Shown one piece after another: positions 7,560 through 39,701 of a stretch of 64,000 bases of DNA; position 1 is the stretch's first letter; the number at the start of each line of letters is the position of its first letter. The DNA comes from Chondrosia reniformis (Eukaryota > Porifera > Demospongiae > Chondrillida > Chondrillidae). The stretch is from NCBI GenBank assembly GCA_947172415.1, contig OX359201.1:5303501-5367500 (forward strand). Direction: 5' to 3'. The notes beneath the pieces were generated by a model. It worked only from the letters and a program-made list of their open reading frames with translations. It did not search any database and was not told the DNA's origin. Both the position numbers and the translations under genes were made by a program.

Positions 7560-9680
7560 ATGGAGACAGAACCAGTCTCTCCATCTGGTCAGAAACCTGT
7601 CATAAGTAGTGGAAGCAAAGCTATCAAAATGGATCACCAACAATCCTCAGTGGATCATCCAATTGAGGATGAGAAAGTACTCCACAACATTGCAATGAAG
7701 GCACCCATGATTAATCCAGATAATCCAAGATTCCTCTCCCGTGAATTAGGACTACCAGAAGTAGATATCCAAAACATTATTTATCAAAACAAAGACAACC
7801 CAAAAGAGCAAATATTTCAACTTTTGCTGAAGTGGTTTCAGCAGGCTGAGATTGAGAATCGTACATATGAAATCCTAATAGAGGCAGCAGTTAATATCAA
7901 AGTACAGCCACTAGCAGACTTTCTTAGGAAGAAGGCCGGAATACGTAAGATAAGCCAGGATAGCATTCTTGAGTCTTCTTGTGAAGAAAACAGAAACGGA
8001 TGTGACACAATCAAAGAACATTTAGAAGGTGACCAAATGTTCTTTGATCCGGTCCCAGACTCGGGTCTTTCAGAGAGGCTTGTTGCCAGTGCTACTGAGA
8101 TAGCTGGTCAAGATGAGCCTCCTGTACCTCCTGACCCTCCACTTGAGCCTACTCCACCCCCTACACCAGATCCACCAGTGCCACCAGAACCTGCTATTCT
8201 TAGTTTAACGAGGTTCTTTGAGTACCGTTTGCTGGGGTATGTTAGCAAGCATCCACGAGCAACCAAACTGGGTAGAAATATTGTTCTCATGATGATATAT
8301 GCCTTTATCATCATTCAATTGGTGGAAACAGCTCTGGTTTCACGTCTTCTAGAAAACAAAGTTTCTTTTCCATCCAAGTGCTACCACAGTGGCCTTGCCT
8401 TTGTGCTAACAGTAACGTTACGTTCTCTGACCCGTTGTCTCTTTCCTCTTGTGTTGAGCATGAATTTTCACCATGTAATCAGTAAAAGGTTCATGAAAGG
8501 ACAGTTCTTCGATGATCAGTCGCATAAAACATTTATTTGGAAAATTGAGCAAGAAGAGAACTTTGATGTTGTGAGAAAAGTCATTTATCTGTTTGGAGAC
8601 GAGCTACTTGCCATGGCGGTCAAGAGCAAAAAGGACATTAAAGTGTTGTTGACCCATTTACGGAAGGAGTTTGAGGCAGACATGCATGTGATGTGCATTA
8701 CGTCAATCCTTGAAGGAGTAATACTGACATTAGGAATAATGTCTCTTGGAGCTTTGGAATACTCAGTGGCAGATATACCTAACAAAATGACAATGAATGG
8801 AACAAATATTTTGAAACTGTTTGACGTTGCATCCTGCCTTTTCTTGAACATATTTGGTGGTCTGATGTTGTCCATCTTTTTCTTTGAATTTAAAATCAAA
8901 TTTCTCATTTCTTCCATCATCAATGCTGAATCGCTTAGCTGCAAGCATAAGGAGATTGATACTAAAGCTAAGCTGAATGACGATTTGAAAAAGAAATCAA
9001 TGTTTATGGTTGATGCTATATCATCCAACTGGTGTTTTGTGGAGATCCTCCTTTATCTTGGCTGTGCATTTTATTCCGTCTTGCTAGTGATTGCATCAGC
9101 CTCTGGCTTACCTCTCAGTTGCGGTATAGTCATGGAGAAGGCAGATTTCTACGAAGAATTGCAAGTCCATTGGCTTTGGACTGTTATACTCATCACCTTC
9201 TTCCATTTGTTGGCCACCTCTATATTTGCCATACCACTCGTGCGTCCAGTTGGTATCATCTTGGAAGTGGCTGGAATTCTGTTTCTTTATGTGACCTTTG
9301 AAGGCAGCGCGACCTCCTTCACAAGATACATGCAGATCCTTTATGCCATCTTCCCCCTGTGCTACATCTTTTGGTATCAGGTAGTGACTATTGTCCACGA
9401 GTTTGCCTTTGCCTACTGCACCAAGGGCTTCATATATGTCCATGTTCGCAGACTGGCCTTCTGTATCACACTGTTGATGGCCATGGTTGTTGCAGTTGGG
9501 TTTAGCATATACAATGAATACTTACTCCTGGGCATGCAAGGAAGTGATTCCTTTGATAGAAACACTCCTCAGAAAACCTTTAATCGCATTTGTGACACGG
9601 GTGCTGGCATCTTTTCGGAATATTGTATATGTAATAGTGACAGAGACCCATTTTGCTCTTGTCTCTCAAAGCAGATTTAA
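7560..9680 (+). CDS. Death-domain multi-pass membrane protein, paralog 1
   Basis: An uninterrupted 706-residue frame. Residues about 36-128 read as a death domain: a RELGLPEVDIQNI helix pair, PKEQIFQLLLKWF, and a last helix LADFLRKKAG. A proline-rich linker follows (186-211). Nine hydrophobic segments lie near 240-262, 278-300, 377-398, 420-443, 490-512, 537-560, 563-582, 590-612 and 630-653. The tail has five cysteines in its last 30 residues. Signatures shared with the other paralogs are SASGLPLSCG after segment 5, QILYAIFPLCYIFWY in segment 8, and an acidic residue ending segment 9. With a cytosolic death domain, an odd number of segments puts the cysteine-rich tail outside the cell (inference). 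I do not recognise the membrane module; it does not look like a GPCR. It is the left member of the 4.58-kb tandem duplication. Confidence 0.88.
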   Translation: METEPVSPSGQKPVISSGSKAIKMDHQQSSVDHPIEDEKVLHNIAMKAPMINPDNPRFLSRELGLPEVDIQNIIYQNKDNPKEQIFQLLLKWFQQAEIENRTYEILIEAAVNIKVQPLADFLRKKAGIRKISQDSILESSCEENRNGCDTIKEHLEGDQMFFDPVPDSGLSERLVASATEIAGQDEPPVPPDPPLEPTPPPTPDPPVPPEPAILSLTRFFEYRLLGYVSKHPRATKLGRNIVLMMIYAFIIIQLVETALVSRLLENKVSFPSKCYHSGLAFVLTVTLRSLTRCLFPLVLSMNFHHVISKRFMKGQFFDDQSHKTFIWKIEQEENFDVVRKVIYLFGDELLAMAVKSKKDIKVLLTHLRKEFEADMHVMCITSILEGVILTLGIMSLGALEYSVADIPNKMTMNGTNILKLFDVASCLFLNIFGGLMLSIFFFEFKIKFLISSIINAESLSCKHKEIDTKAKLNDDLKKKSMFMVDAISSNWCFVEILLYLGCAFYSVLLVIASASGLPLSCGIVMEKADFYEELQVHWLWTVILITFFHLLATSIFAIPLVRPVGIILEVAGILFLYVTFEGSATSFTRYMQILYAIFPLCYIFWYQVVTIVHEFAFAYCTKGFIYVHVRRLAFCITLLMAMVVAVGFSIYNEYLLLGMQGSDSFDRNTPQKTFNRICDTGAGIFSEYCICNSDRDPFCSCLSKQI

Positions 9681-9970
9681 CTATGATTAAGACTGTTGGA
9701 CAATTTTTATTATAATAATGAATTCAAAACTTATTTGCGTGATAATAATTTTATAAGTTTTTGTACTAATTTGTAGATATGATTAATTACTGTGCAATTT
9801 CATATGTACGACTCCTGTATATATGTTCAGCCATCTCCAATTGTGGTCTAACAGGTATGCAACGTATTTCGCATATGTTACGCGCCAGCTCTTATACGCG
9901 AAGTGCTTGGAGATATGCGGTCAGGTGAACGGATAAAGTCGACCTACCTAATATAGTTTGCCTGTGAGCC

Positions 9971-11596
9971 ATGGCTAGCTATAGCGGAGTAAACGTAACC
10001 AGCATTTTGAGAAAAACATTTTCTTGGCTGACGAAGAATTTGGCCATTAAATGTATTCTTTCAGAGCTTTTTAGTAGTTATTTAATTGATTTGGATCTTT
10101 TGAGGGAATTGGAAGCCTGTCATTCCTCAGAAGCGGCAAATAAGAAATTTTGCACTCACCTTTTTGAGAGAGCTACACCAGAAAACTTTGACACCTTCAT
10201 CGATATTCTGAGAGAGAGCTACCCTGACTGCCCAAAGCATAAAGATGTCGTAGAAAAACTTGAAGCAGAATTAGGAGCAGGTATTTATGACCTGTGGTGT
10301 ACTCTATATATTTAGTAAATTTTGGTTTTATTCAAATTCCCATGTAGGTATAAAGACAATTTGTCCCGAATCTAGGCCTATGCAGCTGCAAGACTTAGCT
10401 TATAATAAAGATAATTATAAATGTAGTTTGATAGGTCATTTAAGATCAGAGCAATGCAATGCAGAGGATGTCCTGAAATCTCTTTATGTTGGACCATACA
10501 CCATAATTGTGCAACTTTTGAATCCCCATCTCACTAAAACCCAAGAGATTGTCAATCAATTAATCTCACTTGGTAGAATTGAAGATAAGAAATCAGAGGA
10601 AGTTAACCAAAGAAATTCTGTTGCCGAGCTTTCCAAGTATTTAGAGTTAGATAAGAAGTGGAATGATTTATCATGCTTGTACAACCTGATCTCTTGCCTC
10701 TATGTGCCAAATAAGGAAATGTACCATGAAGCATTTGAGCTGCTAGATCACTATAATGAACACTTAATTGCTTACCGATACGTTATTGCTGCAGTAAAGA
10801 AGAGGCTTAAAGCACTACGTTGATCAAGTTGTCCTCCACCAAAAGAAGGTATGATTAAAGTGGAAATAACTGTCAGAGACAGCATTTCTGAGCTGACCTA
10901 CAAAGACTGCCTGGATCTCTGGAGGATGATACTGGTGGAAGGAGCTGGCATACCTAGAGATGAGATAATTTGGGGATCTGCAAGGACTACACAGAGCACC
11001 ACAGTCACCTTTTATGTCTCACAGGTGTATAAGCAGGCAATAATTGTTACAGTAACAAGGGGATCAACACTTTGGGCAATGCTGGATTTAGGAGTGATCA
11101 AAGTAGCTATTCCTGGCATAGTTGAATTTAGCATCAATTGGAGTATGGCCAGCAGCTATATCAAACAAGCATTGCTATCTGAGGAATATCTTATGAAAAA
11201 TACAAAGGTTAGACTGTAAAACAATTAAGAATTACATATCACTTTATGGTTTTTGATATGATTGTGGTTTGAATATCACTTCCATTATTGATAAACGTAC
11301 TTGACATACATACTGTATTTGAGCCATGTGTATTTCCATACAGCCAATAACTATGTAGATATATCTGTCTTTATTACTATTTTTGCAGCTGTCAAATATT
11401 AGGAGATTCTATGATTCCTATGGATCTCCCCGAAGTGTTTATATATCTGTCTCTTGCACCAGTAAGTATATAGGATACAAATAGCTACTTAAAATAGTCT
11501 GCATTTACATTACCAGAATTTCTGATGTAAAAATATGTTTATGCAGATACAGATGTTATGTTTTGCTCATCATCGGAGAAACTTGAAAATTTTTAG
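9971..11596 (+). pseudogene. CARD-containing gene A, one premature stop
   Basis: Four exons fit: 9971-10280, 10348-11207, 11389-11461 and 11547-11596, with phases 1, 0 and 1. They give about 430 residues ending SSSEKLENF. The first exon carries a CARD-like helical bundle: ILSELFSSYLIDLDLL, then FCTHLFERATPENFDTF, then IDILRESYPDC, then a final KDVVEKLEAELG helix. The rest is a helical region plus a domain starting KVEITVRDSISELTYKDC that I do not recognise. The reading frame has one TGA at 10821-10823 where copy B has CGA (Arg). This is a C-to-T nonsense change after the helical region. The intact coding potential downstream argues for a recent lesion or a polymorphic stop. The gene lies 290 bp downstream of paralog 1 on the same strand. 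Confidence 0.75.
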
Positions 11597-12135
11597 GGCT
11601 TTGCCAAAAATGTAACAGCTCTACATTACAAGTATCCATTCTGTTATGGGAATTTATAAACTTTTTATTATGGCTTGATTGTATATACACATTTGAAGCT
11701 GTATACACTACAGACTACCAATTGTGGGCATAAGTTCAGCAAATCCCAGACTAAATAGTGAGATACCTCCATGGATACAGTTTACCACATGTAGATAAAT
11801 GGTCCTAGGAATTAAAATGAAAAATTTATAATTGGCCTCTAGATATGCACTTATTCCCAAGTATTTTCATGACAGAGACATGCTGGTATACCTAGGTTGC
11901 AACAGCTAGAAATATGCAGGTTTCACTGTAGTAAAGATAGCTTCAAATGTGTTTTCAAGCATTATGGTGGAAATTCCATCTGCAAGTATTAACAAGTGTC
12001 TGTGTCCCAGGCAGCCTCTCTTAAAGGAAGTCTCCCTTATCAAAGTCCCAAGTAGTTTACTGTAGAGTACATATATTGCATATAAATATATAAATATATA
12101 AATATTCATTTCATATAATATGTACGTACATATAA
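11597..12135. other. Duplicated noncoding spacer
   Basis: Part of the tandem duplication (its twin is 16178-16716). It contains AT-rich runs of ATATAAAT before 12135. The minus-strand ORF at 11906-12172 is low-complexity and not supported. Confidence 0.5.
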
Positions 12136-12485
12136 ATGTCTCTATTTTCACCACTATTAGATAATGACTCAAGATCAGAATGCCATAAATTCACTTCTAT
12201 GGACCAGCTACCAATTGTTGCACCTACAAAGATAATTAGACGAAAGACAAGTCCTAGAGTTTCAGAGATTATGTCGCATTTGTATCAAGGACTAGACCCC
12301 AAAGAGCAGATCTACCAACTCTTTTTGAAATGGTTTGAAATGAGCGAGATTGAAGATTACACATATGACACCTTAATGAAAGCAGCAGGGACATTAAAGC
12401 ACGCCTGTTGGCCGATTACTTCAAAGAGAAAGCAAGAGTGGAGGAAAACAAAACCTTTGATCTGTCCCCTTCCCCATTGGAAAGC
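12136..12485 (+). pseudogene. Death-domain exon relic, copy A
   Basis: Encodes a death-domain stretch similar to that of paralog 1: DPKEQIYQLFLKWFEMSEIE and YDTLMKAAGTLK. The reading frame then shifts at about 12396-12402. The last helix (LLADYFKEKA) is only found in the next frame, so one base appears to be missing. The relic runs directly into paralog 2 but cannot be read through into its membrane module. It is not clear whether it began as part of paralog 2 or of a lost gene. Confidence 0.75.
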
Positions 12486-12536
12486 CTTCATACAATTGAG
12501 AAGAGAAAGCTCCACAGCATTGCAATAAATGCACCC

Positions 12537-14261
12537 ATGATTAATCCAGATATTCCAAGTGTCCTCCATTTTAGGAAGAAGGCTGGAAATTTTAGAGAAC
12601 ATTTAGAAGGTGACCAAATGTTCTTTGATCCGGTCCCAGACTTCAGTCCTTCAGAGAGGCTTGTTGCCAGTGTTACTGAGATAGCTGATCTGCCTCCTGT
12701 GCCTTCACTTGAGCCTACTCCACAGCCCCCAACCCCTACACCAGGTCCCCATCCACCAGTGCCACCAGAACCTGCTATTCTTAGTTTAACGAGGTTCTTG
12801 GAATACCGTTTGCTGGGGTATGTTAGCAAGCATCCACGAGCAACCAAACTGGGTAGAAATATTGTTCTCATGATGATATATGCCTTTTTCATCATTCAAT
12901 TGGTTGAAACAGCTCTGGTTTCGCGTCTTCTAGAAAACAAAGTTTCTTTTCCATCCAAGTGCTACCACAGTGGCCTTGCCTTTGTGCTAACAGTAACATT
13001 ATGTTCTCTGACCCGTTGTCTCTTTCCTCTTGTGCTGAGCATGAATTTTCAACATGTAATCAGTAAAAGGTTCATGAAAGGACAGTTCTTCGATGATCAG
13101 TCGCACAAAACATTTATTTGGGAAATTGAGCAAGAAAAGAACTTTGATGTTGTGAGAAAAGTCATCTATCTGTTTGGAGACGAGCTACTTGCCATGGCGG
13201 TCAAGAGCAAAAAGGACATCAAAGTGTTGTTGACCCATTTACGGAAGGAGTTTGAGGCAGACATGCATGTGATGTGCATCACGTCGATCCTTGAAGGAGT
13301 AATACTGACATTAGGAACAATGTCTCTTGGAGCTTTGGAATACTCAGTGGCAGATATACCTAACAAAATGACAATGAATGGAACAAATATTTTGAAACTG
13401 TTTGACATTGCATCCTGCCTTTTCTTGAACATATTTGGTGGTCTGATGTTGTCCATCTTTTTCTTTGAATTTAAAATCAAATTTCTCATTTCTTCCATCA
13501 TCAATGCTGAATCGCTTAGCTGCAAGCATAAGGAGATTGATACTAAAGCTAAGCTGAATGACGATTTGAAAAAGAAATCAATGTTTATGGTTGATGCTAT
13601 ATCATCCAACTGGTGTTTTGTGGAGATCCTCCTTTATCTTGGCTGTGCATTTTATTCCGTCTTGCTAGTGATTGCATCAGCCTCTGGCTTGCCTCTCAGT
13701 TGCGGTATAGTCATGGAGAAGGCAGATTTCTACGAAGAATTGCAAGTCCACTGGCTTTGGACAGTTATACTCATCACCTTCTTCCATTTGTTGGCCACCT
13801 CTATATTTGCCATACCACTCGTGCGTCCAGTTGGTATCATCTTGGAAGTGGCTGGAATTCTGTTTCTTTATGTGACCTTTGAAGGCAGCGCGACCTCCTT
13901 CACAAGATACATGCAGATCCTTTATGCCATCTTCCCCCTGTGCTACATCTTTTGGCATCAGGTAGTGACTATTGTCCACGAGTTTGCCTTTGCCTACTGC
14001 GCCAAGGGCTTCATATATGCCCATGTTCGCAGACTGGCCTTCTGTATCACACTGTTGATGGCCATGATTGTTGCAGTTGGGTTTAGCATATACAATGAAT
14101 ACTTACTCCTGGGCATGCAAGGAAGTGATTCCTTTGATAGGAACACTCCTCAGAAAACCTTTAATCGCATTTGTGACACGGGTGCTGGCATCTTTTCGGA
14201 ATATTGTATATGTAATAGTGACAGAGATCCATTTTGCTCTTGTCTCTCAAAGCAGATTTAA
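12537..14261 (+). CDS. Multi-pass membrane protein, paralog 2, death domain lost
   Basis: The membrane module is nearly identical to paralog 1 (nine hydrophobic segments, the PLSCG signature, the same cysteine-rich tail). The N-terminus is collapsed. Only the first death-domain helix (APMINPDIPSVL) and the end of the last (FRKKAG) remain, joined by an internal deletion. A second deletion precedes EHLEGDQMFFDP, and the proline-rich linker is rearranged. The frame is open upstream to 12408, but the first in-frame ATG is 12537, giving 575 residues. It may be a membrane-only protein, or its N-terminus may come from an unseen upstream exon. The membrane part has no frame break, which suggests it is still under selection or very recently duplicated. 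Confidence 0.75.
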   Translation: MINPDIPSVLHFRKKAGNFREHLEGDQMFFDPVPDFSPSERLVASVTEIADLPPVPSLEPTPQPPTPTPGPHPPVPPEPAILSLTRFLEYRLLGYVSKHPRATKLGRNIVLMMIYAFFIIQLVETALVSRLLENKVSFPSKCYHSGLAFVLTVTLCSLTRCLFPLVLSMNFQHVISKRFMKGQFFDDQSHKTFIWEIEQEKNFDVVRKVIYLFGDELLAMAVKSKKDIKVLLTHLRKEFEADMHVMCITSILEGVILTLGTMSLGALEYSVADIPNKMTMNGTNILKLFDIASCLFLNIFGGLMLSIFFFEFKIKFLISSIINAESLSCKHKEIDTKAKLNDDLKKKSMFMVDAISSNWCFVEILLYLGCAFYSVLLVIASASGLPLSCGIVMEKADFYEELQVHWLWTVILITFFHLLATSIFAIPLVRPVGIILEVAGILFLYVTFEGSATSFTRYMQILYAIFPLCYIFWHQVVTIVHEFAFAYCAKGFIYAHVRRLAFCITLLMAMIVAVGFSIYNEYLLLGMQGSDSFDRNTPQKTFNRICDTGAGIFSEYCICNSDRDPFCSCLSKQI

Positions 14262-14551
14262 CTATGATTAAGACTGTTGGACAATTTTTATTATAATAAT
14301 GAATTCAAAACTTATTTGCGTGATAATAATTTTATAAGTTTTTGTACTAATTTGTAGATATGATTAATTACTGTGCAATTTCATATGTACGACTCCTGTA
14401 TATATGTTCAGCCATCTCCAATTGTGGTCTAACAGGTATGCAACGTATTTCGCATATGTTACGCGCCAGCTCTTATACGAGAAGTGCTTGGAGATATGCG
14501 GTCAGGTGAACGGATAAAGTCGACCTACCTAATATAGTTTGCCTGTGAGCC

Positions 14552-16177: not shown

Positions 16178-16716
16178 GGCTTTGCCAAAAATGTAACAGC
16201 TCTACATTACAAGTATCCATTCTGTTATGGGAATTTATAAACTTTTTATTATGGCTTGATTGTATATACACATTTGAAGCTGTATACACTACAGACTACC
16301 AATTGTGGGCATAAGTTCAGCAAATCCCAGACTAAATAGTGAGATACCTCCATGGATACAGTTTACCACATGTAGATAAATGGTCCTAGGAATTAAAATG
16401 AAAAATTTATAATTGGCCTCTAGATATGCACTTATTCCCAAGTATTTTCATGACAGAGACATGCTGGTATACCTAGGTTGCAACAGCTAGAAATATGCAG
16501 GTTTCACTGTAGTAAAGATAGCTTCAAATGTGTTTTCAAGCATTATGGTGGAAATTCCATCTGCAAGTATTAACAAGTGTCTGTGTCCCAGGCAGCCTCT
16601 CTTAAAGGAAGTCTCCCTTATCAAAGTCCCAAGTAGTTTACTGTAGAGTACATATATTGCATATAAATATATAAATATATAAATATTCATTTCATATAAT
16701 ATGTACGTACATATAA
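16178..16716. other. Duplicated noncoding spacer
   Basis: Twin of 11597-12135 in the other copy. No gene seen. Confidence 0.5.
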
Positions 16717-17066
16717 ATGTCTCTATTTTCACCACTATTAGATAATGACTCAAGATCAGAATGCCATAAATTCACTTCTATGGACCAGCTACCAATTGTT
16801 GCACCTACAAAGATAATTAGACGAAAGACAAGTCCTAGAGTTTCAGAGATTATGTCGCATTTGTATCAAGGACTAGACCCCAAAGAGCAGATCTACCAAC
16901 TCTTTTTGAAATGGTTTGAAATGAGCGAGATTGAAGATTACACATATGACACCTTAATGAAAGCAGCAGGGACATTAAAGCACGCCTGTTGGCCGATTAC
17001 TTCAAAGAGAAAGCAAGAGTGGAGGAAAACAAAACCTTTGATCTGTCCCCTTCCCCATTGGAAAGC
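16717..17066 (+). pseudogene. Death-domain exon relic, copy B
   Basis: Appears identical to 12136-12485, including the single-base frame lesion at about 16977-16983. The lesion therefore predates the duplication. No membrane module follows it; the sequence diverges at 17067. It is an orphan fragment. Confidence 0.8.
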
Positions 17067-20000: not shown

Positions 20001-21203
20001 GGGCAAGTGATACAGGTAAAGTAAAGGAAGACTTAGAAAGCATTGGACGCGTTTTTCATTGTAGCATTAATAAAAATAACATAGATTTAACTACAAAAGC
20101 CTAAAAAATCATTGATGCATATCTCAATCCAGACCAAGTACATTTTCAGCCATATTTATTCCTAGTTTCCCTTTATTTCTATAGAACTAGCTATAGCAGG
20201 AGATTGTATGAAATACACATTTGGGATTCCTTTGGTTATAACCTACTTTCATTTAATTAATTAATTTAAAAATCTTAAAACTTTGTCTCTATTCTGTAGC
20301 TCTCAGCTAATGTTATTCAGCTAAACAGAAAGTGGTGTTGCTCAGCTTGAGAGCCCTTAAACCATTTATCTCAGTTCTCTATCTCAATATTAATCAAGGT
20401 CTCCTGCCCTGGAGTAGTCTGATGAAATGAGACCCTTTCATTGTGCAATCACCGCTTTTATCAGACTAGCCCTGGAGTGGTATCTGATTGTTATGATGTA
20501 ACTGTCAAAATATTTGTTTTAAAGTGGAGTTTGTTTGTGTTATTATCTAAAATATTAAAAATGTATCATTTAAATACATTGAAATACAAGTGATTTGCAA
20601 GTGCTACATGATGTACAGTGAAGTGTAGGTATTTAAATATTAGACTGAATCAGTGAAAGGCCAAAGAGACTGGAAGTGCAAAAAATACTTGGTTAGTGAG
20701 TATATATATGTCTATAATTGCATGTGTATGTACATTAATGACCTTTCCTGCTTATAGTAGTCTCATTGTCCAACTGTAGTGTCTGACTAGTCTGTGTTGT
20801 AATGATATTATCATGATATTAAAATACTTTGAATGGCAGGAATAAATTGCTAGTGATTCCTCAATATCAATACTGATGATGTACATAGTCCCGATCTAAC
20901 AGCAGTTAATCCCGATTGTAATTTACCATCTCGGAGTGGGATCCCAACCTTCAAGCTAGCGATGGTAAGCCTAATTTATAATTTTGAATAACAATATTTG
21001 TTTACCTAACTGTGGCAGTTCTGAGGCTATGTTTTCCAAACAAAGTGGCCATTTAGGTTAGGTTAGTTAGAGTTACTTATGGTTAAAACACAAGGCTTTC
21101 TTACGTAATACAAGTTGCTCTACTGTAGACTAAGCGGAAGAACACAAAGCTTAAGAGCGCGAAGAAGAGGTCAAGCTCATTTCCCACATCACTAAAAACC
21201 TTG
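17067..21203. other. Gene-poor interval
   Basis: About 4.1 kb with no gene I can support. A GC-richer patch at about 17280-17560 contrasts with its AT-rich surroundings but has stops in all frames. Two short minus-strand ORFs (17571-17837, 17927-18211) have no recognisable domain. An imperfect direct repeat sits at 19121-19345 (AGTCTCCATAACAACC and GTAGAACAAACTTCACA each occur twice). Plus-strand ORFs at 19582-19764 and 19838-20104 are unsupported. Confidence 0.5.
19121..19345. repeat. Imperfect direct repeat pair
   Basis: Two copies about 110 bp apart share AGTCTCCATAACAACC, AGCAACCATTC and GTAGAACAAACTTCACA in the same order, with indels between them. They may be a local duplication or two copies of a short mobile element. 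Confidence 0.7.
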
Positions 21204-24200
21204 ATGGTTCAGGAAAGGGATTTAAAGGACATCGCTGCTTGCTTGACGCACAAAGTTTGGAAGCGCCTTGCTAGGACGATAGGCGTTAAGGATCGAGATA
21301 TTGAAGATATTGAGGAGAAAGAAAATGACCCGAGCGAAAAACGATATCAGATGATTCGTCGGTGGTGGGACGGCCAGGATCAGCCACTCTTTTGGACTCT
21401 GTATTCTGCGGCGAAAGGGAAGTTGCAAAACGTTCAATTAGCAAAGAAAATACAAGGCGTTGCGCAAAAAACACATCTTCTTGCTTCCGACGATGATAGT
21501 GGTAAGTCACGACAAGTGTATGTTGTACACAAGTACACGTACAGCTTTGTGCCTCTATTGTGACGCCATTTTACTACATTTGAACAGTAGATACAGACAT
21601 CTTAATTATCAGATACTCAGAAGCCATCCAGGAAGAGTGGAATTTAAGGGTTTAGATTAAATTGTTTTGGAGAAGGCCTGATGTTGAATATTTATTTCCC
21701 AGGCCAGTTTTGGAGGCCTGCCCAATCCCTTAGACTGATTAATTAGGCATCTACTTGTTATGCTTTTTCTACCAATTATTCTTTTAAGTTTTTATACCAA
21801 ATATGCACAATAACTACCCCCTATTATGCCACATTGCTCTTTATAAATCATAAATGTAACTAAGTTAGGTTTTGTACTGATACAACACTACTAAGATCTG
21901 CCAATTTTAGCTCAGCCGTAGGACACTAAAAATGTTGAAAATTCTCTGAAGAATCAGTAAATATTTAAATAGCACTCCTCAACAGAATAATATCAATTTT
22001 TGATGCAGTTAGAATGTAAACTTGAAGGGACAGATAGTATATTGAAGCCAACTACCTCTCTGTAGTAAGGTAACTTTAGAGTAGGTATGTGTTTTGTTAT
22101 CTTTGGTAAGCTACTAATTGTAACCCCATAGTATCATCCAAAATTCTTGTAATGCTTAGACGCCCACATAGTGGATAGAAAAGGACTTACCATTAAATTT
22201 TCGTTTCAGTTAAAATGTAAACTTGAAGGCCCAGATAGTATATTGAGGCTCTGTAGCCCAGATAGTATATTGTGGCCAACTACCTACGTATCTGTAGCTA
22301 CTAATTGCAATCTTCTTGTAACGCTTAGACACCCACACAACAGATAGAAAAGGACTAACTAAACAGTTTTCCATTGATGAGGAAAGTGAGGAATATGAAG
22401 AGGAAGTAACTGAAGATTTTTCAGAAGCAGAGTCTCTTAAAAATCAACAAACTGGTACTCCTAAGCGTTTGAGTATTGCAAGCACAATGCCAGATTCAGA
22501 CACTGAAGGTAAGCAATATGAAGATATAATTGGAGAAGTAAATTACTTTGCGTAGGCTTTAGTACAATTTACTCCTTCACTTCAAAGATGTGATGGCAAG
22601 ATCTGGTGGAATATCCACTGGCTGATACTCACACTGGAGGAAATTGACATTTGAAGCTTTTAAAACACCTGCAAATAATAACTTTTTTGTAGCTAGCATA
22701 ATAGGGGAAACACGAAGGAGGCATTGCTGTGGAAATTGTAGCTCATTGGCAGAGCACTGGTGGTCATAACCAGCTGTCTTGGGTTTAATTCCCGGCAATT
22801 GCTTCTTTCATGTTTTCCCTTTTCATGATATTTGAGGATGATTGTAGTTACTTGTGGTTGGATTATTATTTCAATTAGTGAAAGGACTTATTTTAATAGG
22901 CCCCTTCTTTGCAATCCTTTTTCCTCATGTTGTAGAACTGTTTCTGTAAAAGAAACATAATAGGATGTTTTAAGCACACTGACTGGAGGTTAATAATAAC
23001 CTTTTTCTCTGCCACATTGTGAGGTATTATGATAGAATATCTTTTTTGCAGTATATCAGACATCTGTAATGTCTACAAAGAAGAGTGTGTCTCTTCCGCT
23101 TGGCTCTCCACCGAAATTAACAGAAGATGCTAGATCTAATTCTGCCCCCAATGCATGCAAGCATGAAAACAAAGACGATGAATCTATTCTTGGTAAGAAA
23201 TTCTTGCCACAGAATAAGGATTTTCTGAATACATCTTTAGATGGTTCATCTTTTTACCTCTTTGAACATCTACAGATGCAGGTTTACTTACTCTTTTGTC
23301 AACATTGCTTAATGAGATCTGGAGCTTCTTTTAGTATGTATATTGGGTTGTCATTTAAATAATGGGGTGAATTAAGAAGATTGTAGGGGGGTTGGTTACA
23401 TTGGATTGTGATAGTCTAAGAAAAAAAGTATAAGGTGGTTTGGCTAGTGATTTGCTAAAAGTCTAATACGTATGTATACCACAAACTCAAACTAAAAGGG
23501 GTTGTATCAGGACCCTAAGCACCCCTCCCTATCCACCACTGCTTAAGTTTTTATATTAGAGTGTCATCAACTATCTATAACAGTTACTTACAATTTATAT
23601 TGTACACACATGATGATTGGTATACTAATGCATTTGCTACTCTGTCTTATAGAAAATGAAAATAATGATAAATTTGAAAGATTGTCAAGTGAGGACGTAC
23701 AATGGTTGACATCAGACATACAGTCCAACAAAATCTGCTGGATTCTTGATCAAATGAATGATAAGAGAGCTGTCTTCTATGTCCTATTCTTTGTTATTAT
23801 TTTGTTTGAGTTGGCACTGTGTTTGAAGTACTTCTTCTCCAATTCTGATTGCTCAATCCAAGTTTCTAGCAGCAGACACTCGTGGCAAGTCAAGTGTGTC
23901 ATTCGTTCTCTGACAAGATTAGTGTTGCCTGCGTTCATGATTTATGCATTTTTGGATTTTGCACATTCTCGGACTAAAAATGCTGAAAACTTTAAGACAT
24001 TAGAAACAGCCCTATTGGGATCCCCAACCGATAACCAAAAGACCTTTCGGAAGAAATTTGAATACCTCAGACGTAGGCAAGAATATAGTCTCAGATCAAC
24101 CTCTCATGAATATCTTATCTCGGGTCTAGTGTACTCCATTGTGAAGGCTGCAGTCACACTCTTTGCTTTGTATTACAGTCGACTATTTCAATCCACTTGT

Positions 24201-25130
24201 GACAGTTGGAAGGTTATGAATTTTGTTTGTTCTGTTGTCCTTTTTGCACTCAGTGAGTGCACCAGGAGTTTCTACTTTAATGATATGAATCTCATTTACT
24301 GTATGCGTTCCTTACGAGTATACTGTAGCATAAAGAAGAAAGATGAAACTGACCTAGACAGGGCAATCAGAAAAGTTGAATTCTGTCTAAATGAACGGTG
24401 GTACAAGCTAGAATTATGTTTTCGTTCTATGGCCCTAACGTACTCCATTTTACTTCTAATGAACTGGTCAGCCGGTAAATCCCTAACATGCTTTACTTCC
24501 GAAGCTCTTGAGGCTAATGCCTGGCTGTATTGTGTCCTGCTAGTCATATCGTCTCACTGCTTGGGCACCCTCTGGAGGTTTGGATGGCTGCAGCTCCTAT
24601 TTCCTGTTGCCGAAGCTGTCATTTTTGCTATAATCTTCAACTACCATTCCATATCCAGTGCATGGATGGGCAGTACGGGAATCTTCTATGCTATAGTCCC
24701 TATGATCTCCACACTTCATTACCTAATGACGTCGATTGAACGTCAATGGGTGGCTATTAACTCCTCCTTAGGGAATGCAACACACCTCTCGAGGATGTTG
24801 TCACGTATTGCTCTAGTTGTACTAATAATCCTATCGTTGTGTTTAACTGTCCACTCAGAATATTACTTTGTCAAGGACCCATCAACTCTGACTACCTCAT
24901 GTCCCTTGGATGGGGAAGATGCATCAAGGGACACTGTGCAGCAGGTTCAAAGCCTTGCTAGCAGAGTTTGCAACACTGTTGTTATTCCTTCACAACGTAC
25001 TCATCTGCTGCAGGAGATCTTCCAGTCCTCCCAGCCATGCACCTTTATATCTGCACAAGTTAAGGAGACGCTTAGTCCAGTAATTGCACAACTGATAGAA
25101 CTTTATGACAGATTACAGGGTAAACTGTAA
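21204..25130 (+). CDS. Death-domain multi-pass membrane protein, paralog 4
   Basis: Four exons fit GT-AG borders and phase 1 throughout: 21204-21501, 22344-22508, 23052-23192 and 23653-25130. They give 693 residues. Exon 1 is a death domain (residues about 5-85): VWKRLARTIGVKDRDIEDI, then QMIRRWWDGQDQPLFWTLYS. Exons 2 and 3 encode an acidic and serine-rich linker (EESEEYEEEVTEDFSEAES). Exon 4 holds the membrane module of about nine hydrophobic segments, with divergent family signatures: SAGKSLTC in place of SAGxPLSC, and a segment-9 end LTVHSEYYF. Two late cysteines match the tail pair of paralogs 5 and 6. Intron 1 contains an internal duplication and intron 2 a SINE-like element. The start at 21204 is the first ATG before the death domain. 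Function is inferred only from the domain. Confidence 0.85.
22014..22360. repeat. Imperfect intronic duplication
   Basis: In intron 1 of paralog 4, 22014-22190 and 22208-22360 resemble each other (AAATGTAAACTTGAAGG, CAGATAGTATATTG, GATAGAAAAGGACT). The second copy supplies the start of exon 2 (ATAGAAAAGGACTAAC); the first carries a decayed version. An exon boundary has therefore been duplicated. Confidence 0.75.
22735..22890 (+). mobile_element. tRNA-derived SINE-like element, copy 1
   Basis: TGTAGCTCATTGGCAGAGCA resembles an internal A box, and GGGTTTAATTCCC 40 bases further resembles a B box. This is the layout of a tRNA-derived pol III promoter. The 3' part (ACTTGTGGTTGGATTAT) is shared with the element at 36833. 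It lies in intron 2 of paralog 4. Confidence 0.65.
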
Positions 25131-25985: not shown

Positions 25986-27952
25986 TCAAAGGATGTGAAT
26001 TTCAGTTTGTATCACATTTAAAATGTGCATTACACTTTTTGCCTTCTCATTAGTCAAGCTTGAGAAATCCAAAAAGTGACAATACTTAGGTTCTGAATTA
26101 ACACCTGTGGTTTGCAATGTGTTGCAATATTTGTTTACTAGCTCTTGCAGGCGTTCGTATTCTTTTTGGTCAAATGGATGTTGGATAGCCAAAGAATTGG
26201 CTTTACTAAGTGAATCTACATGGCGGTACTCAGTGTATGTTGATAGAAGAAGTGAGAGAATTATCAGAACTGACAAACCAGAGCAAGATGCAAATCTTGA
26301 AATATGAGTTGGGTTGCCATCCGCACGTTTTGAGTCAATACATATCCACTGTCTCTTAGCTGATGCAAAATGATACCAAAGCAAATAAGTAAGAGGCACA
26401 ATGGCATAGAGAATGTGCGTGTATGAAGACCAATGAAAGCTATCACAGGTAAACCAAAGCATGATCATGGCAGCAATTTCCGCGGCAATAGCCACATATG
26501 GTACCATAGTTACATCTATTGAATTGAATACAGCTATCTGCCCAATTAATATAATGCATACAAACAAACCCCAGTACTTTGATGAATTAGCTGTTGGGAC
26601 TAATTCCGCTGAGACTCCACAGCTCAAAGGTGTACCAGAAGCCCAGCTTAATAGCAAAATAATTGGAATTATCACTGAGAGGAATCGGAAAACTATTTCT
26701 AACTTGTACCAACGATTTGTGATGTAGTCTTCAGCTGCTTTGCTGACACGTCCAATCTTCTTGGAGGCATCGTGCATAATTTTGATTTCTCGGATACCAT
26801 GTTTGATGTGCATCTCAGTGAAATAAAGGGAAACGATTATTCCATAAAGGGCTAGTGTAAACCCAAACGACACCAGATCACACCAACCAAGCAAGGTCAT
26901 CCAGAAGCTTGACCCTTGCTGAACACCAAAGAACATCATAACTGCCATGAGGAAGACGGATTGGAAGAATGAGGTAAAGCATCTAGCATTAAGATTGCTT
27001 TCATTTTTCCTCTTTATTGTGTTTAGGAGTTCCTTCAGTTCACTATTCTTCCTAACACTCCATGGCCAGTACTTTTTGACATAAGCATTGACTAGTTTAA
27101 AATTGGAATCTTTCTCCAATTCCATGGCGAAGTCATCTAGAAACTTATTTGTGTCACTTTGACCTGTGATAAACTGTCTCCAGAATATGTAAGACAGTGG
27201 GATAATAAGACCGCAACGACTGAAGAATCGAAGGAGGATAGGGAAAAACCAACTGTAAAAGTTGGTACATTTCTTAGTATGGTTGGGATGCTTCATAAAA
27301 TCATTTTAGCTATCAACCCCTGTAAGGAAGATCTGAGTGAATACCAGAAGTAATAAGGATAATTTAATTCTTGCCGCATAACGATGCTCCTTTGAATATT
27401 CGATTACTTTGTATACTGTGAAGTCCTTTACACTCAAGATCGATCGAGACTGTGGCGGCGGTGTGTCGTTTTGGCCATCATCGAAAGTTGGTTCAATATC
27501 GGTTTCATCGTTTGGTTCAGGTTTTGTGGTTCGGGGCTAGTCCGTATACGGGTGTTAGTTTTATTAGCTCCCTTCTTGCGTTTCTTCCGTTTACGTGGAA
27601 CGCTAGGCTGTGTATTCTCGTTCTCTTTCTCCTCAGGTTCCGTTTGTATTGTCTTATCCAAAACTGGGGATCTCGAGCTGCTCACTTCTGGGCATGACTG
27701 GGATCTACTGTGAACGTTTTCTTTGAAGGGTCGCACTTGAAGGGTAGACTGACTAGGACATTCATTGTCCGTTGCTTCCTCGAAATTGTGAAAATCGCCG
27801 AGCTGACCGCTGCTGTTTCTTCTTGGAGTACTTGTGTTATCGGGCTGTTGCTGTTGCTGCTCTGTCTCACTTTCTTCGTTCTGGTTTTGCCTAGCAACAG
27901 AACCTAAAACCATAGGCTCATTCTCTGGCACACGAGCGAGTTCACCACTCAT
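25986..27952 (-). pseudogene. Multi-pass membrane protein, paralog 5, in-frame TAA
   Basis: Two minus-strand exons fit: 27686-27952 (MSGELARVPE, ending before a GTGAGC donor) and 25986-27536, both phase 0. The predicted 604-residue protein has no death domain. Its N-terminus is disordered and acidic, with a glutamine run, leading to PPPQSRSILSVKDFTVYK, which matches the juxtamembrane region of paralogs 1 and 7. The membrane module is complete: WASGTPLSCGVSAE, HILYAIVPLTYLLWYHFAS and a late cysteine pair. One codon at 27306-27308 is TAA, exactly where gap-free alignment to paralog 6 has Tyr (AYND versus S-stop-ND). Everything after it stays open for 436 codons. It could be a recent null allele, a sequence error, or part of a 54-base in-frame intron with a weak acceptor. 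Confidence 0.75.
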
Positions 27953-28357: not shown

Positions 28358-30271
28358 TTAACCATTACTCATGGTCATTAACTCTGCAGATTGGGCATAT
28401 CTTTTATCAGCAGGCTGTTCTTCTTTGTTATTTGTACGAAAAAATCCATGGACCATTTGAGCTGCAAATCTAACTGGCAGTTCATCATGACTACCCTTCA
28501 TCAGAGTTGGATCCAAATAATAACAAGAGGGGTTTTCCATTCTAGTTCCAGTGGATGGACCTAATTCACAAATCTTAGTAGCTAGATCCCGCAACATCTC
28601 TACATCTTGGTTGTCATAGGAACGGGATACCTGCAACGAGGAATCGCTCAATATTTTCAGGTACTTGTGTTCCATGTATACTGATGCACACAGTGAGAGA
28701 AGGAGGAGAAGAAGTAAACCTATACGAGAGAAAAAACGTGAAACTGTGGTTGGATTATTATCTGTATTCTCTCCTTCAACATTGATACCAATCCAGTTTC
28801 TCCTTAGAGAAGCAGCATGGTACCAGCATAGGTAAGCAAAGGGTATCACTGCATAGAGAATATGAGTGTAGCCTGACCACTGGAAGTCATCACAGGAAAA
28901 CCAAAGGATGATTAAAGCCATTGCCTCCATACTTAACCCCACTATAGGAACCACTTCTGTTTCAAAAGGATTTGTCACCATAAACTGACCAATGGCTATA
29001 ACTGCAACAAAAAGAAACCAAAATCGTGCAGATGAGTCTTTCATGGCTCCATTAAGCGATACTCCACAGGTAAGAGGTACTTCGGCAGACCAGCTAAGGA
29101 ATAGGATTATTGGGAGTATAACAGAAGCATATCGACACATGATTTCTAGGGTGTACCAACGCTGTGTGATACAATCTTCTGTACTCTTCAATTTCTTTCT
29201 ATCAATTGGGCTGGTTTCACTCCAATTTCTTATCTCACGTACATAGTGCTTCATCTTAGCTTCAGTGAAATAGACAGCTAGTATAGCCCCAGTCAGTACC
29301 AATGCAAATCCAAAGGAAGCAAGATCTATAACACCCAATATCTTCCAAAATACACTAGATGTTTCATAGACTTGAAAGGTGGCTAAAGCTAGTGTAACAA
29401 TTCCAGCTTGACACAATGCAAAAACACTCATGTAATTCAAACCTTTCTCTGTATTTGTCTTAACGACCTTCAATAATTCCCTTTGGTCATTTATACCTAC
29501 ACTATTGGGCCAATGCTTATTAACAAATCTTTTTACAAGTTCAAAACGTGAAGGATTCTCCATCATGGAACTCAATCCACTGCCGTCTATAACTTTAGTC
29601 ACAGCCCTCTTCCAAAACACTATGGACATTGATAGAACAATCCCAACCCTGATGGAGAACCTTAATCCAGAAGACAGTATCCAGGCATAGATGCCAGTGC
29701 ACTTTGAATAAAAGGAATTTTGGCTGTTGTAATCATTGTAAGCATTCAATACACTCAAGAAGATGTGGACTGCAGCCAGAAAAATTAAAGCAAGCTTGAT
29801 ACAACCAGACCTTTCCTGGATGCACCGATATCCTTTCCAATTCTTGATAACCAGAATAAACTCGTTAGTGCCCGGTCTGGATGGCTGATCTATTTCACTC
29901 TCTGACGAATTTTGGGCCCTGACCTTTGCGTTACTGGTATTGCTAGGCACACCTGGCCGGTTGTAATCTGTAGGCCTATTGGGAGGAGGAGGAGGAGGAG
30001 GAATTTCGGTGCCTTCTCTACTCAGTGATCTATTGTGCATCAAATTATCGTTATCCGATAGAGGGACTGATGATGTTGCAGTTAATACATTTCCAGCAGG
30101 GTGCTGCGAAGGTGGTCTGTTTTCTGAGGTTGCGGTATACCTTGCACTCGAGCTAGCATCCGGATAGATAGGGTGATTAATGCTTCCACGCCCTCCTTCG
30201 TTGGCTACTCGCTCTGATGGTCCATTCTTCGTAGACTCAGTTTCGGAAGTTAAAACCGAGTCGTCTGCCAT
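28358..30271 (-). CDS. Multi-pass membrane protein, paralog 6, no death domain
   Basis: Single-exon minus-strand gene. The frame is open from 30397, but the ATG at 30271 (MADDSVLTSETES) starts the disordered region cleanly and gives 637 residues. I prefer it; the upstream 42 codons look like leader sequence. Residues 1 to about 140 are serine- and proline-rich, including a proline run, with no death domain. The membrane module of about nine segments follows, with WSAEVPLTCGVS, HILYAVIPFAYLCWYHAAS and a segment 9 ending in ASVYMEHKY. Two tail cysteines match paralog 5. It is the nearest relative of paralog 5, its downstream neighbour on the same strand. It is divergently oriented to paralog 7. 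Confidence 0.85.
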   Translation of the reverse strand: MADDSVLTSETESTKNGPSERVANEGGRGSINHPIYPDASSSARYTATSENRPPSQHPAGNVLTATSSVPLSDNDNLMHNRSLSREGTEIPPPPPPPNRPTDYNRPGVPSNTSNAKVRAQNSSESEIDQPSRPGTNEFILVIKNWKGYRCIQERSGCIKLALIFLAAVHIFLSVLNAYNDYNSQNSFYSKCTGIYAWILSSGLRFSIRVGIVLSMSIVFWKRAVTKVIDGSGLSSMMENPSRFELVKRFVNKHWPNSVGINDQRELLKVVKTNTEKGLNYMSVFALCQAGIVTLALATFQVYETSSVFWKILGVIDLASFGFALVLTGAILAVYFTEAKMKHYVREIRNWSETSPIDRKKLKSTEDCITQRWYTLEIMCRYASVILPIILFLSWSAEVPLTCGVSLNGAMKDSSARFWFLFVAVIAIGQFMVTNPFETEVVPIVGLSMEAMALIILWFSCDDFQWSGYTHILYAVIPFAYLCWYHAASLRRNWIGINVEGENTDNNPTTVSRFFSRIGLLLLLLLSLCASVYMEHKYLKILSDSSLQVSRSYDNQDVEMLRDLATKICELGPSTGTRMENPSCYYLDPTLMKGSHDELPVRFAAQMVHGFFRTNNKEEQPADKRYAQSAELMTMSNG

Positions 30272-30397
30272 CTCTGATACAGTGTGTGCGGCTTCCCACG
30301 AAATGCTTGAGGGGTTATGTTGTAGGAGTAATATGAGTCCCCTGTGAATAAGATCCGGGAGGGCTAATTTCCTAGGAATCTGCCCCCCCGGATGCAA

Positions 30398-31203
30398 TTG
30401 ACTAGAAAAATGGCTGCCATTGTTAAAGTAATTTGGGCCCCCTTCTGAACGATTAGGAATTTAGGCCCCCCTTCCCCATTTGTCAGAAATTATGTTTGCA
30501 TGAAGCAAATTAAGGAACAATAAATTCACTATTATAGTATATTGAAATTTTGAGGTACAAGATAATCAGAATAGTGACTTAATTTTAGGTTTATAGCTAA
30601 GATCTGGCAGGGACATTGTATCGAGTCTTTATCCTGACTTAAGGCTGATGAGTTAGGAAGCTTTTGAAATTTCTGTTTAATAAGGTTAAAGAATATTACT
30701 TATTTCAACTATAGCTACACTGCAACACTGCATATATTCTTGCTAACTTCTGGATAATTTCCTGTTTCGAGGTAACAGTAAACATCAGAGTATGAGAATT
30801 GGCCTCCTGGAGCTTTTACTGCTTCTTCCTCGTTAGTAGCTATTCAGCTTTCAAGTGAAATAAGTCGTTTTTTTACGAATACTAAACACTGCGTATACGT
30901 ACGTACGTCTAGCTTAATCACTGAAGCGATTGATTGCGTACTTTCATTCGAAGGCCTATAGCGCTGTGCGCATGCCGGCTGATCTGCTCTAAGCAAAGGG
31001 GACTATTTTCCCAGACCCTATTTACGGGGGTGGTTTATATTACTGATACTCCTACAACGTCATGGTGGTTTTCAAGGCAAAAAACCCATGCATTCTTGTC
31101 TATATAAACACAGACGACGGGGATATATAGCCATCAGTTAATTATTGTATAAGTAAGTAAGCATTAACAAAATTAGCTAGAAGAACCTTAAGACTGAGGC
31201 ACG
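30398..31203. other. Divergent intergenic region
   Basis: Spacer between paralogs 6 (minus) and 7 (plus); both promoters should be here. It includes ACGTACGT and a GC-richer stretch near 30950-31030. No gene seen. Confidence 0.5.
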
Positions 31204-33272
31204 ATGGCAGTAAGTTTAAGGCTATTAAATCCTTTATTATAATATTATTCACAGAGTGCCGTTTGCAATCAGACATTAGACCGGGTTCCAACCGAAAGAG
31301 AACGTGCTCAAATAGCGGAACGTCTTCCTTCTGATATATGGCGAAGGTTCGGCACGGCACTGGACCTTAAGAGAACTACCATGGACCAGATAGACTGTAA
31401 AGCAACCGGAAGAGGTGAAGACATTGTCGAACGATACTGTCAACTCTTTCAGATCTGGATCGAAGAGGATGAAAATCCAACATGCCAGAAACTGATAGAA
31501 GCTCTTCGTTCTTTAAAAAAGTGCGGGTTAGCAAAAATGGTTAAGAAAATTGTAACCAATAAAGAAGATAGTAAGTCACTGTTGCAGTGCGCTATATATA
31601 TAGCATTGCCATCTCTATAGACCTTCATTTTTTAGTGTTTTATTTTAATTATATACATTACAGTTTAACTTGCATAATATAATGGATAACAATGGTTGGG
31701 GATGCACAGGGGTTCATAGTTATGATATAGGTATGCAACTTGTTTTGGTTCCCTCTTGTACTTGGAATTTTTATTAAGGTCTCAAGCGTCTAGCACAGGT
31801 CTTGCTAAGGACTAAATAAGGTGGTCGTTGACCTCAAATTGTAGCTGTATATGTTGATTGAAAAGGGAGCACTAGTTGCATAATGGTCTGATTTCTTCAG
31901 CATTGTTTACTATCTTTCTTAATGTATAGGGGACCCGAATCATTCTCCAACAAGAAATATGGATAAATATGAGCCAATCTTAAGCCTTCATAAATTCACA
32001 GTTTACAAGTTGATTGGTAATTTCTTAAGTTACCCAGTGCTTGGAATAGTCACCAAAGTTGCACTTGCATTAATCCTAGTATGCAACTTTCTACTGAGCA
32101 TATTCTTGAAGTACAGCAGTGGAAAAATGCATTCAGCCTTACAATGCACAAACAAGAATATAATTATTCTTTTGTACATTCTAACATATGTGGCTGTACC
32201 TTCCATCTTAATATGGATAGTGGCACGAAACACTAGTAAGAGATTTCTCAGAAGGCGTTGGAAATTTAGCCAAAATGCAGAAGATGAAAAAAATGCTGAC
32301 TTTATGAAGAAAGTTATTGAACTCTTTTGGGACAGCGATATTGCAGATGACAGTAATGGCAAAAGTCATAAAGAAAGATTGAAAGAATTGATAAAAGATA
32401 TAAATAAAGAACTCAATGTCATGTTTGTGACTTCAATCCTGCAGGCTATACTAATGTTGATTGTTGATTACATGCAGCTAACCAACCAGGGACCAGTGGA
32501 TCATGAAATGCGTGATCATGAGCTTCATTTGTCAAGGATTATAATTTCTTTTCTCCTAAATTGCTCAACTGGTGTACTGTTTTCAGTTTTTCTGATTGAA
32601 ATTAAAATCAGACACTTAATTGCTGCTATCCTGAAGCTGCCCTATCCGTCTTCTACCAATGAAGAAACAGATGAAAAGAAAAGAATTAGTGTAAATCAGT
32701 TGAAATCACAGGCAAAAGTGATTCTGGACTGTCTCCTTCAGGGTTGGTGTATATTGGAGCTGGCTATATATCTTGGTGTACAGGTTTACACCATAATCCT
32801 GTTTATGTCAGTTTCTGCTGGTCAGCCATTGAGCTGTGGGAGTTCAAATGTCACAATTTCTAATCAAGAAAATCTGAATTTCTGGTTGCTCTTCATTGTA
32901 TCTTTCACAGTGATCCATTTACTCTCCACAACTCCCTATCTTGTTTGTACACTTAGAATAACTAGCTCCATAGTAGGAAGTGTGGGAATCTTTCTACTCA
33001 GTAGATACAATGGATTTGCAGATCTCCTGGACTTCAATCGCATTCTTGATGCCATTGTTCCTTGCTGCTTTCTCTTCTGGTATTTATTTGCTATGATAAG
33101 ACATGAATACATTATTATAGTGTGTACAGATGGAAGGGATAGCAAGCACTGGAAAAGGTTGGCTAGAAGACTTGGTCTTTTGGTTCTTCTCTCTGTTGCC
33201 ACGTGTCTAGCTGTGTGGCAAGAATATCAGGCACTGAATGCATTAAAGGAGCCAAAAGATTTGAATAAATAA
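31204..33272 (+). CDS. Death-domain multi-pass membrane protein, paralog 7
   Basis: Three exons: 31204-31209 (just ATG GCA), 31255-31570 and 31930-33272, with phases 0 and 1. The first intron is only 45 bp. They give 554 residues. The death domain spans residues about 25-105: SDIWRRFGTALDLKRTTMDQ, then CQLFQIWIEEDENPTCQKLI, then a last helix LAKMVKKIV. It connects by a short linker (DPNHSPTRN) straight to the membrane module, without the proline-rich spacer of paralog 1. Family signatures are SAGQPLSCGSSN and RILDAIVPCCFLFWYLF. The tail stops soon after segment 9 and lacks the cysteine pair. Like paralogs 1 and 4 it is plus-strand and has a death domain. It ends 283 bp before PMPCA. Confidence 0.87.
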
Positions 33273-37925: not shown

Positions 37926-39578
37926 TTACGACATATGTCTTGCTGAATTGCTCATTGACAATATGTAGTAGAATTCTGTGAAGAAGGATGCAGCTAAAGT
38001 GCAGATTATCAGCACAAAGAAGCCAATTTGAGAAGCAAAGTTTGGAACATGGACAGCATTTCCGTCAGCTCTACTAGACTGATTAATACTCATCCACTGA
38101 CGTGTAGCAGACACCAGATGATACCAAATAAGGTAGGTCAGTGGAATTATTGCATATAGTACATGTGTGTAGGCTGACCATGTGAAGTCTTCACATACTA
38201 GCAACAGCATGATAAAGGCTGAGACCTCTAGTATTATACCAGTAAGATGCACAGTTCTGACTTGAAATGGGCATGAAATTAACAGTTGTCCTATGAAAAC
38301 TGCTATAATGTAAATACTCCAATAATACACAGCCTCCTTGGGCAAGTCATGTTTTGGCTCCATACTGCCCAAAGGAATTTGGGAAGCAAAACTGGCAAAG
38401 AGAATCAAAGGTAGCAAAAGAGAGTAATAGTTGCATAAAATTTCCAACCCGTACCATCTGTCTATTAGCTGGTGATCCACAGTTTTGGCTTTTTGTCTGA
38501 GTTTCTTGTTGGCCTCTGGAAGGAGCCGAATCTCTCTTGCAATGTGCATAATTCTGGCTTCAGTAAAATAAAATTCGAGAGTTATGCTAGAGAAGACCAA
38601 ATTAGTAAAAAATGAAAGGATATCAAGAACACCAATTACCATATTAACCATTGTGATTGTATCTTGTCCATTTGTACGAATAAGCATTATCATCAAAATA
38701 GTTGAAAGGAATACGGATTGCAATATTGATGTCAAGCAAGTAATGTTCAAGCTGTCCACTATCTCGCTTTGCATCTCTTGAAGAAAGTCATTTTGTTGAG
38801 TCACTTTCTTCAATACTCTACCCCGATGTTTCTCGGCATACACCTTAATTAGGTTAAAATTTCTGGGCCGCTCCAATTCATACGTTAAAGGATCTCCCTT
38901 CAATCGTTTGTTGAAAAATTGATTCCACAAACTCAGAGACAGGCACAGTGTGAGCACAAAACGAACTAGCCCCCTCAACAGTATTAGCAATATCCAAGGA
39001 GGATATGGAGCTTCGGTGGTTCTGTCAGCGGTATCATAAAACCTATAAATATCTTTCCCGCAATGGATGACCGTAAGAACCAGTTGGACGTTGCTCAAGA
39101 AGACTAGTAATCCTCCCAAGATCCATTTATGTTTACTTATTTTATGAACGGCACAATAAACGAAGGTTTTCTTCACATTTAGAACGACATTGGCAGTGTT
39201 TGGCTCGTCTTGGTCCGAATCGCACGAGTGATTGCCTTTATCACGATCAGTAGCTGTAGTATCGTCCTGCGGAGGTACATCTTCCACCGTAGCGCCTCTA
39301 GGTCCAGATTTTCGTCTTGGCCGAATACCGTCTGCTTGCGGATCCACTGTTGGAGTCTCTTCTAAATCCCTAGACTGCTTCGTAGTAGGTATCGCACTGG
39401 CACCTTCCGGACAATTTACCTGAGCTGATGTAGTCGGTGGATTAGCTCCAGATACGACCATTTCATCGCTTCTTCCCTCATGATCAGTTTCCTCCTGTGA
39501 TTTCAACAGTTTGTCATGATCACTTAATGGGCTGTTGTCTCCCTCTCCTCCAAAGTTAGTATCATCGGGAGTACTCAT
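37926..39578 (-). CDS. Multi-pass membrane protein, paralog 8, no death domain
   Basis: Single-exon minus-strand gene. The frame opens at 39590 (MFFI), but the ATG at 39578 (MSTPDDTNFGGEGD) is four codons in and also plausible; from it the protein is 550 residues. The N-terminal 140 residues are acidic and disordered, with no death domain. The membrane module shows about nine segments and conserved family blocks: THVLYAIIPLTYLIWYHLVS, and segment 9 ending in TLAASFFTEFYYI. The post-segment-5 signature is altered, FASQIPLGS, and has lost the cysteine found in all other members. The tail cysteine pair is also missing. It is the most divergent member and the only one right of PMPCA. Confidence 0.85.
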   Translation of the reverse strand: MSTPDDTNFGGEGDNSPLSDHDKLLKSQEETDHEGRSDEMVVSGANPPTTSAQVNCPEGASAIPTTKQSRDLEETPTVDPQADGIRPRRKSGPRGATVEDVPPQDDTTATDRDKGNHSCDSDQDEPNTANVVLNVKKTFVYCAVHKISKHKWILGGLLVFLSNVQLVLTVIHCGKDIYRFYDTADRTTEAPYPPWILLILLRGLVRFVLTLCLSLSLWNQFFNKRLKGDPLTYELERPRNFNLIKVYAEKHRGRVLKKVTQQNDFLQEMQSEIVDSLNITCLTSILQSVFLSTILMIMLIRTNGQDTITMVNMVIGVLDILSFFTNLVFSSITLEFYFTEARIMHIAREIRLLPEANKKLRQKAKTVDHQLIDRWYGLEILCNYYSLLLPLILFASFASQIPLGSMEPKHDLPKEAVYYWSIYIIAVFIGQLLISCPFQVRTVHLTGIILEVSAFIMLLLVCEDFTWSAYTHVLYAIIPLTYLIWYHLVSATRQWMSINQSSRADGNAVHVPNFASQIGFFVLIICTLAASFFTEFYYILSMSNSARHMS

Positions 39579-39701
39579 GATAAAGAACAAGTTAACAAAG
39601 TTTGCACCAGTCCACCCTATTAACTATATTCATTTGCTCTTTTAACTCTATTCATTTACCCTTGTAACTATATTCATTTGCAATGCATGCATTTTTGTAT
39701 A

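Follow-up and report, generated by a model that had tools for sequence, protein, structure and literature searches.

Death receptors such as Fas and TNFR1 cross the membrane once and have cysteine-rich domains outside the cell and a death domain (DD) at the C-terminus. Some of the sponge proteins described here were also membrane proteins with a DD, which was closest to the DDs of Fas and FADD, but it was placed at the N-terminus, and hydropathy gave nine segments instead of the single segment of the TNF-receptor type. The tandem DED layout of the FADD/caspase-8/FLIP system was common to two sponge DED-DED fusions. However, caspase-8 ends in a caspase domain, whereas the sponge DED-DED members ended in the membrane module. 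A sponge DISC with FADD and CASP8 of Amphimedon has been studied, with the receptor given as an accession in the part of the source consulted (PMC13012725).

The module itself shared its predicted fold, and also its long loops 2-3 and 4-5, with the insect odorant and gustatory receptor (OR/GR) channels and the GRL/7TMIC proteins (Orco, OR5, OR10, OR28, Gr9, Gr43a, Gr64a, PHTF, and GrlHz). In contrast to the seven segments of the 7TMIC superfamily, nine were found by hydropathy in the sponge module. There was no detectable sequence similarity between them, and some sponge members were set apart by an N-terminal DD or DED-DED. A 2024 review named GRs in protostomes, cnidarians, and placozoans (PMC11526382). 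The 7TMIC fusions on record include the MORN-repeat GRL1 of trypanosomatids and the WD40 GrlHz of Holozoa (PMC9998090). Similar to the sponge members, these two proteins bear an interaction domain N-terminal to the receptor fold, but they carry repeats, whereas the sponge members carried death-fold signalling domains. The words "death", "sponge", and "Porifera" had zero occurrences in the main text of PMC9998090, and no combination of a 7TMIC or GrlHz protein with a death fold was found among the papers listed in our search of the open-access literature. In the sources consulted, there was no report of the insect-chemoreceptor fold in sponges.

The module family

The analysed window was a 64,000-nt stretch of Chondrosia reniformis chromosome 13 (OX359201.1, positions 5303501-5367500). 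Whole-genome searches covered the 117,379,552-base assembly in 15 contigs; the genome has been described as 14 chromosomes plus MT, 117.37 Mb in total (PMC12181767). An earlier note on this DNA claimed that seven loci encoded the same module of roughly nine segments, and this was borne out. Namely, the seven loci (m1-m7) were open stop-to-stop frames that fell into one alignment in which W, E, L, L, W, A, P, and E columns did not vary, and the hydropathy of a ten-member consensus gave nine hydrophobic segments, of which the eighth was weak. The W, L, W, P, and E columns were still invariant after two DED relatives had been added. The shared blocks named in the earlier note (SA-x-x-PLSCG, ILYAI-x-P, and a terminal Glu) were present but variable, with PLGS in m7, ILDAIVP in m6, and IFYAIVP in m3. 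Apart from the tandem pair m1/m2, pairwise identity between members was about 19-42%.

Protein searches of the genome (m7 at E<=0.001; m1, m3, m6, and m5 at E<=10) gave 6-8 places per query, all of which were window members or a copy on chromosome 6 with a 490-aa ORF. At E<=10 in the whole genome, the m1 query did not reach m3 and the m3 query did not reach m1 or m2. Since the DED relatives were missed by the searches with all five queries, the member count was a lower bound. In a tree of 10 rows, the four members without a DD or DED clustered (96/94), as did the two DED members (100/100); the DD members, m2 included, did not form one resolved group, and m3 was a long branch.

Death domains fused to the module

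Ten window frames were submitted to Pfam, and three of them scored above the 22.6-bit cut-off of the Death profile (PF00531): m1 with 30.7, m3 with 31.8, and m6 with 42.0 bits. The remaining seven frames had no Death match. The first locus, m1 (7560..9680, + strand), was an ORF of 725 aa (7503-9680, Met at 7560) with the DD at 7686..7931 (+; aa 62-143, 3.6e-7). It was decisive for the fusion because the DD and the module shared this single ORF. In m3 and m6, the two parts would be joined in frame by predicted phase-1 introns (GTAAGT/GTAAGA...AG), and both DD exons had phase-1 GTAAGT donors in a similar context. The m3 splice model consisted of the DD exon at 21132..21501 (+; 1.6e-7, a partial match to profile positions 5-55 of 86 only), a predicted linker exon at 23052..23192 (+), and the module exon at 23653..25130 (+), which was also seen as an ORF and in the genome search. 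For m6, the DD exon was at 31246..31570 (+; 1e-10) and the module exon, with the same kinds of evidence, at 31930..33272 (+). Thus, the claim that three members had an N-terminal DD was upheld at the sequence level, directly in m1 and through predicted introns in m3 and m6, and judged in this way the architecture of a DD on a polytopic module is real.

A PDB search with a profile of the m1, m3, and m6 DDs placed Fas and FADD chains at the top (1.1e-11 and 5e-11). In the structural model of m1, there were six helices between residues 7 and 95, with low pLDDT, and DD chains were absent among the best 50 structural matches of each search. The genome was rich in DDs (150 matches scored among 220 candidates). 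At the density of the DDs listed, the number expected on one strand in the 3 kb before a locus was about 0.002. Of the 150 listed DDs, about 39 (hand count) were located on C2, most of them at 0.6-3.5 Mb, and in nine of these the match contained an in-frame TAG; they formed a large array of DD genes, possibly with introns or pseudogenes.

No intact DD was detected in the other loci. The ORF of m2 (12369..14261, +) was a tandem copy of the m1 module within a 4.5-kb repeat that was 98.2% identical (8015-12487 versus 12596-17068). Over 1476 bases, m1 and m2 differed by 15 synonymous and 12 non-synonymous changes, giving a dN/dS of about 0.22 from only 27 differences. The DD region of m2 was split over two frames, with a DD-like remnant 5' of the module and in another frame (12136..12528, +), and a further DD-like copy without a module was found at 16717-17199 (+); both were recognised by eye from their likeness to the m1 DD and had no Pfam match. 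The m4 frame (25986..27305, -; ORF, Pfam, and genome search) covered the module from segment 2 onward with no DD found. An in-frame TAA was located between its segments 1 and 2 (27306-27308), and therefore m4 may be broken. No DD was detectable in m5 (28358..30460, -), an ORF with a proline-rich N-terminus that was the first member modelled, or in m7 (37926..39623, -; ORF, Pfam, and genome search).

Two further observations concerned the rest of the window. A duplicated gene without a Pfam match followed the m1 and m2 modules (9968-11219 and 14592-15777). Moreover, simple tandem repeats with several open frames were found at 860-1288, 1855-2214, 3309-4529, and 46834-47316 and were probably non-coding.

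DED relatives and neighbouring caspase genes

The whole-genome search with the Pfam DED profile (PF01335, cut-off 35.9 bits) gave nine matches, seven of them above the cut-off. Four were in the window, in a caspase-8-like gene (43793-46000) and a DED-DED frame (42770-43423). Another four, two singly above the cut-off and two just below it, belonged to two adjacent genes about 410 kb beyond the window (C13:5778488-5782981, -; L078:1480-3489 and 3820-5982). These were single ORFs of 669 and 720 aa that encoded a DED-DED followed by the module. As whole proteins, they scored 62.3 and 61.6 bits with the DED profile, in two stretches each. A module HMM built without the DED relatives scored them at 38.8 and 72.7 bits, and the best of 500 shuffles reached 4.4. 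The genome search with the longer protein gave the chromosome 6 copy (1.7e-8), m4 (2.4e-5), and m5 (0.025), as well as the window caspase through its DED (3.2e-4).

The caspase-8-like gene (43793..46000, -) had the DED-DED-caspase layout (DED 1.4e-33, Peptidase_C14 4.9e-59) and kept both the THGK and QACRG motifs. Next to it, a DED-DED frame (42770-43423) and a caspase-like frame (41306-42559) were recognised by Pfam and motifs and probably form one FLIP-like pseudocaspase gene (41306..43423, -). In the latter frame, the QACRG position read QLDNS and the THGK position read GCGN, a loss that we take to be the FLIP-like condition. The distance from m7 was about 2 kb for the FLIP-like gene and about 4 kb for the caspase-8-like gene, and the adjacency of these two genes recalls the vertebrate CASP8/CFLAR neighbourhood. 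The sole DED match off chromosome 13 was on C3, where a FADD-like candidate (C3:926821-928802, -; L077:1322-3303) had a partial DED followed, about 1.5 kb further along the strand, by a DD, with a repeat-rich stretch between them; the best PDB match of this DD was FADD (3.1e-6).

From the DED, DD, caspase, and motif results, the module, DD, DED, caspase-8-like, and FLIP-like genes were therefore linked on one chromosome. The guess of the earlier note that the module, as a receptor or channel, would pass membrane signals to death-fold adaptors was strengthened by the DED-DED fusions and by the FLIP-like and caspase-8-like neighbours of m7.

Topology and fold of the module

Proteins of the 7TMIC superfamily have their N-terminus inside the cell and have longer loops on the inner than on the outer side. 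The N flank of the sponge module contained 32 K/R versus 7 D/E. With hand-set borders, loops 2-3 and 4-5 were basic and loops 3-4, 5-6, and 7-8 acidic, which leaned to the N-terminus inside, but loop 1-2 was basic and loop 8-9 was not. In this orientation, loops 2-3 and 4-5 had means of 65.5 and 47.5 against 12.7-20.7 for the outer loops, and the inner loops 6-7 (3.0) and 8-9 (19.1) were short. The N-terminus would most likely be cytosolic.

In the 7TMIC superfamily, TM4-6 project as an anchor domain and TM7 is divided into 7a and 7b. AlphaFold2 models of m5 and m1, two members with 22% identity, contained helices of 41-47 residues. In fold searches, the insect OR/GR channels stood far above the other matches listed. 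Matches 1-18 for m5 and 1-15 for m1 were one superfamily and covered almost the full length of the module; the Z value then fell by about 6 units at the next match. Pfam 7tm_6 and 7tm_7 were absent among the hmmscan matches of the members at E<=1 and E<=10; a scan of the genome for them was likewise empty, but its controls gave no signal either. A match of the module to a named family, which the earlier note had set as a refutation, was thus half obtained, by predicted fold but not by sequence. Accordingly, the suggestion that the family was undescribed held for the DD/polytopic combination, which had no description in the literature searched, but not for the module, which had kin among the OR/GR channels.

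Possible function

We propose, with a probability of roughly 55%, that the module has the fold of the insect chemoreceptors (OR/GR/GRL, 7TMIC) in a variant with nine segments and carries death-fold tails that would recruit FADD-like and caspase-8-like proteins. This proposal was backed by the DD and DED fusions, the predicted-fold match, and the linkage to the caspase-8-like and FLIP-like genes. The N-terminal tail, which in some members is a Fas/FADD-like DD, in others a tandem DED, and in the rest neither of these, would lie in the cytosol, and the subunits would form tetramers, as insect ORs and GRs do, and may conduct ions. An extracellular or membrane-borne cue would alter, cluster, or re-order the assembly. 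The clustered DDs could then bring in a FADD-like adaptor (DED and DD) and, through it, a DED-DED caspase-8-like protease controlled by the FLIP-like pseudocaspase. The DED-DED members would join this platform one step lower, and the members without a death domain may be co-subunits or modulators.

It was conceivable, though unlikely, that proteins with the same fold and tails are membrane scaffolds, perhaps of an internal membrane, that anchor DD/DED platforms rather than ligand-gated channels. Four of the ten members had no detectable death domain, and with two segments more than the channels they resemble, the pore need not be conserved; PHTF and GrlHz are said to have perhaps an entirely different activity (PMC9998090). 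On the other hand, the strong divergence of the paralogues was as might be expected for receptors of varied cues, although this was weak evidence. It was rather doubtful that the DD and DED membrane proteins are inhibitory decoys that tie up FADD-like or caspase-8-like proteins and thereby prevent death. The DED-DED members had the layout of the FLIP and caspase-8 prodomain without the protease and a FLIP-like pseudocaspase adjoined the cluster, but the present data do not separate activation from sequestration. Still less probable was a chance likeness of a predicted helical bundle to the OR/GR channels, with the module being an undescribed membrane fold, since two such dissimilar members had one superfamily as their leading matches before the drop in Z. 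Finally, a gene-model artefact in a decaying cluster, to which the m4 stop, the split DD of m2, and the introns needed in m3 and m6 might point, was very improbable, being largely refuted for m1 and both DED members by their single ORFs and opposed by the consensus donors and single phase of the predicted introns, the low m1-m2 dN/dS (from few differences), and the small number of DDs expected upstream of a locus.

Returning to the chemoreceptor-like reading, the predicted shape together with the death-fold tails suggests receptors through which an external signal could be coupled directly to cell death. More tentatively, these proteins might be a second kind of death receptor in sponges, namely chemoreceptor-fold channels in which gating by environmental or microbial chemicals nucleates a FADD/caspase-8 complex through the DD or DED-DED tails.

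If the proposal is true, the insect-chemoreceptor fold would be present in Porifera and would gain a signalling output beyond ion flux alone. The sponge FADD/caspase-8 system would have candidate upstream receptors, and the way in which early animals coupled cues from the environment or from symbionts to programmed cell death would become directly testable with few genes. If these proteins were indeed a second kind of death receptor, chemical sensing and the execution of cell death would be combined in single proteins of an animal without neurons.
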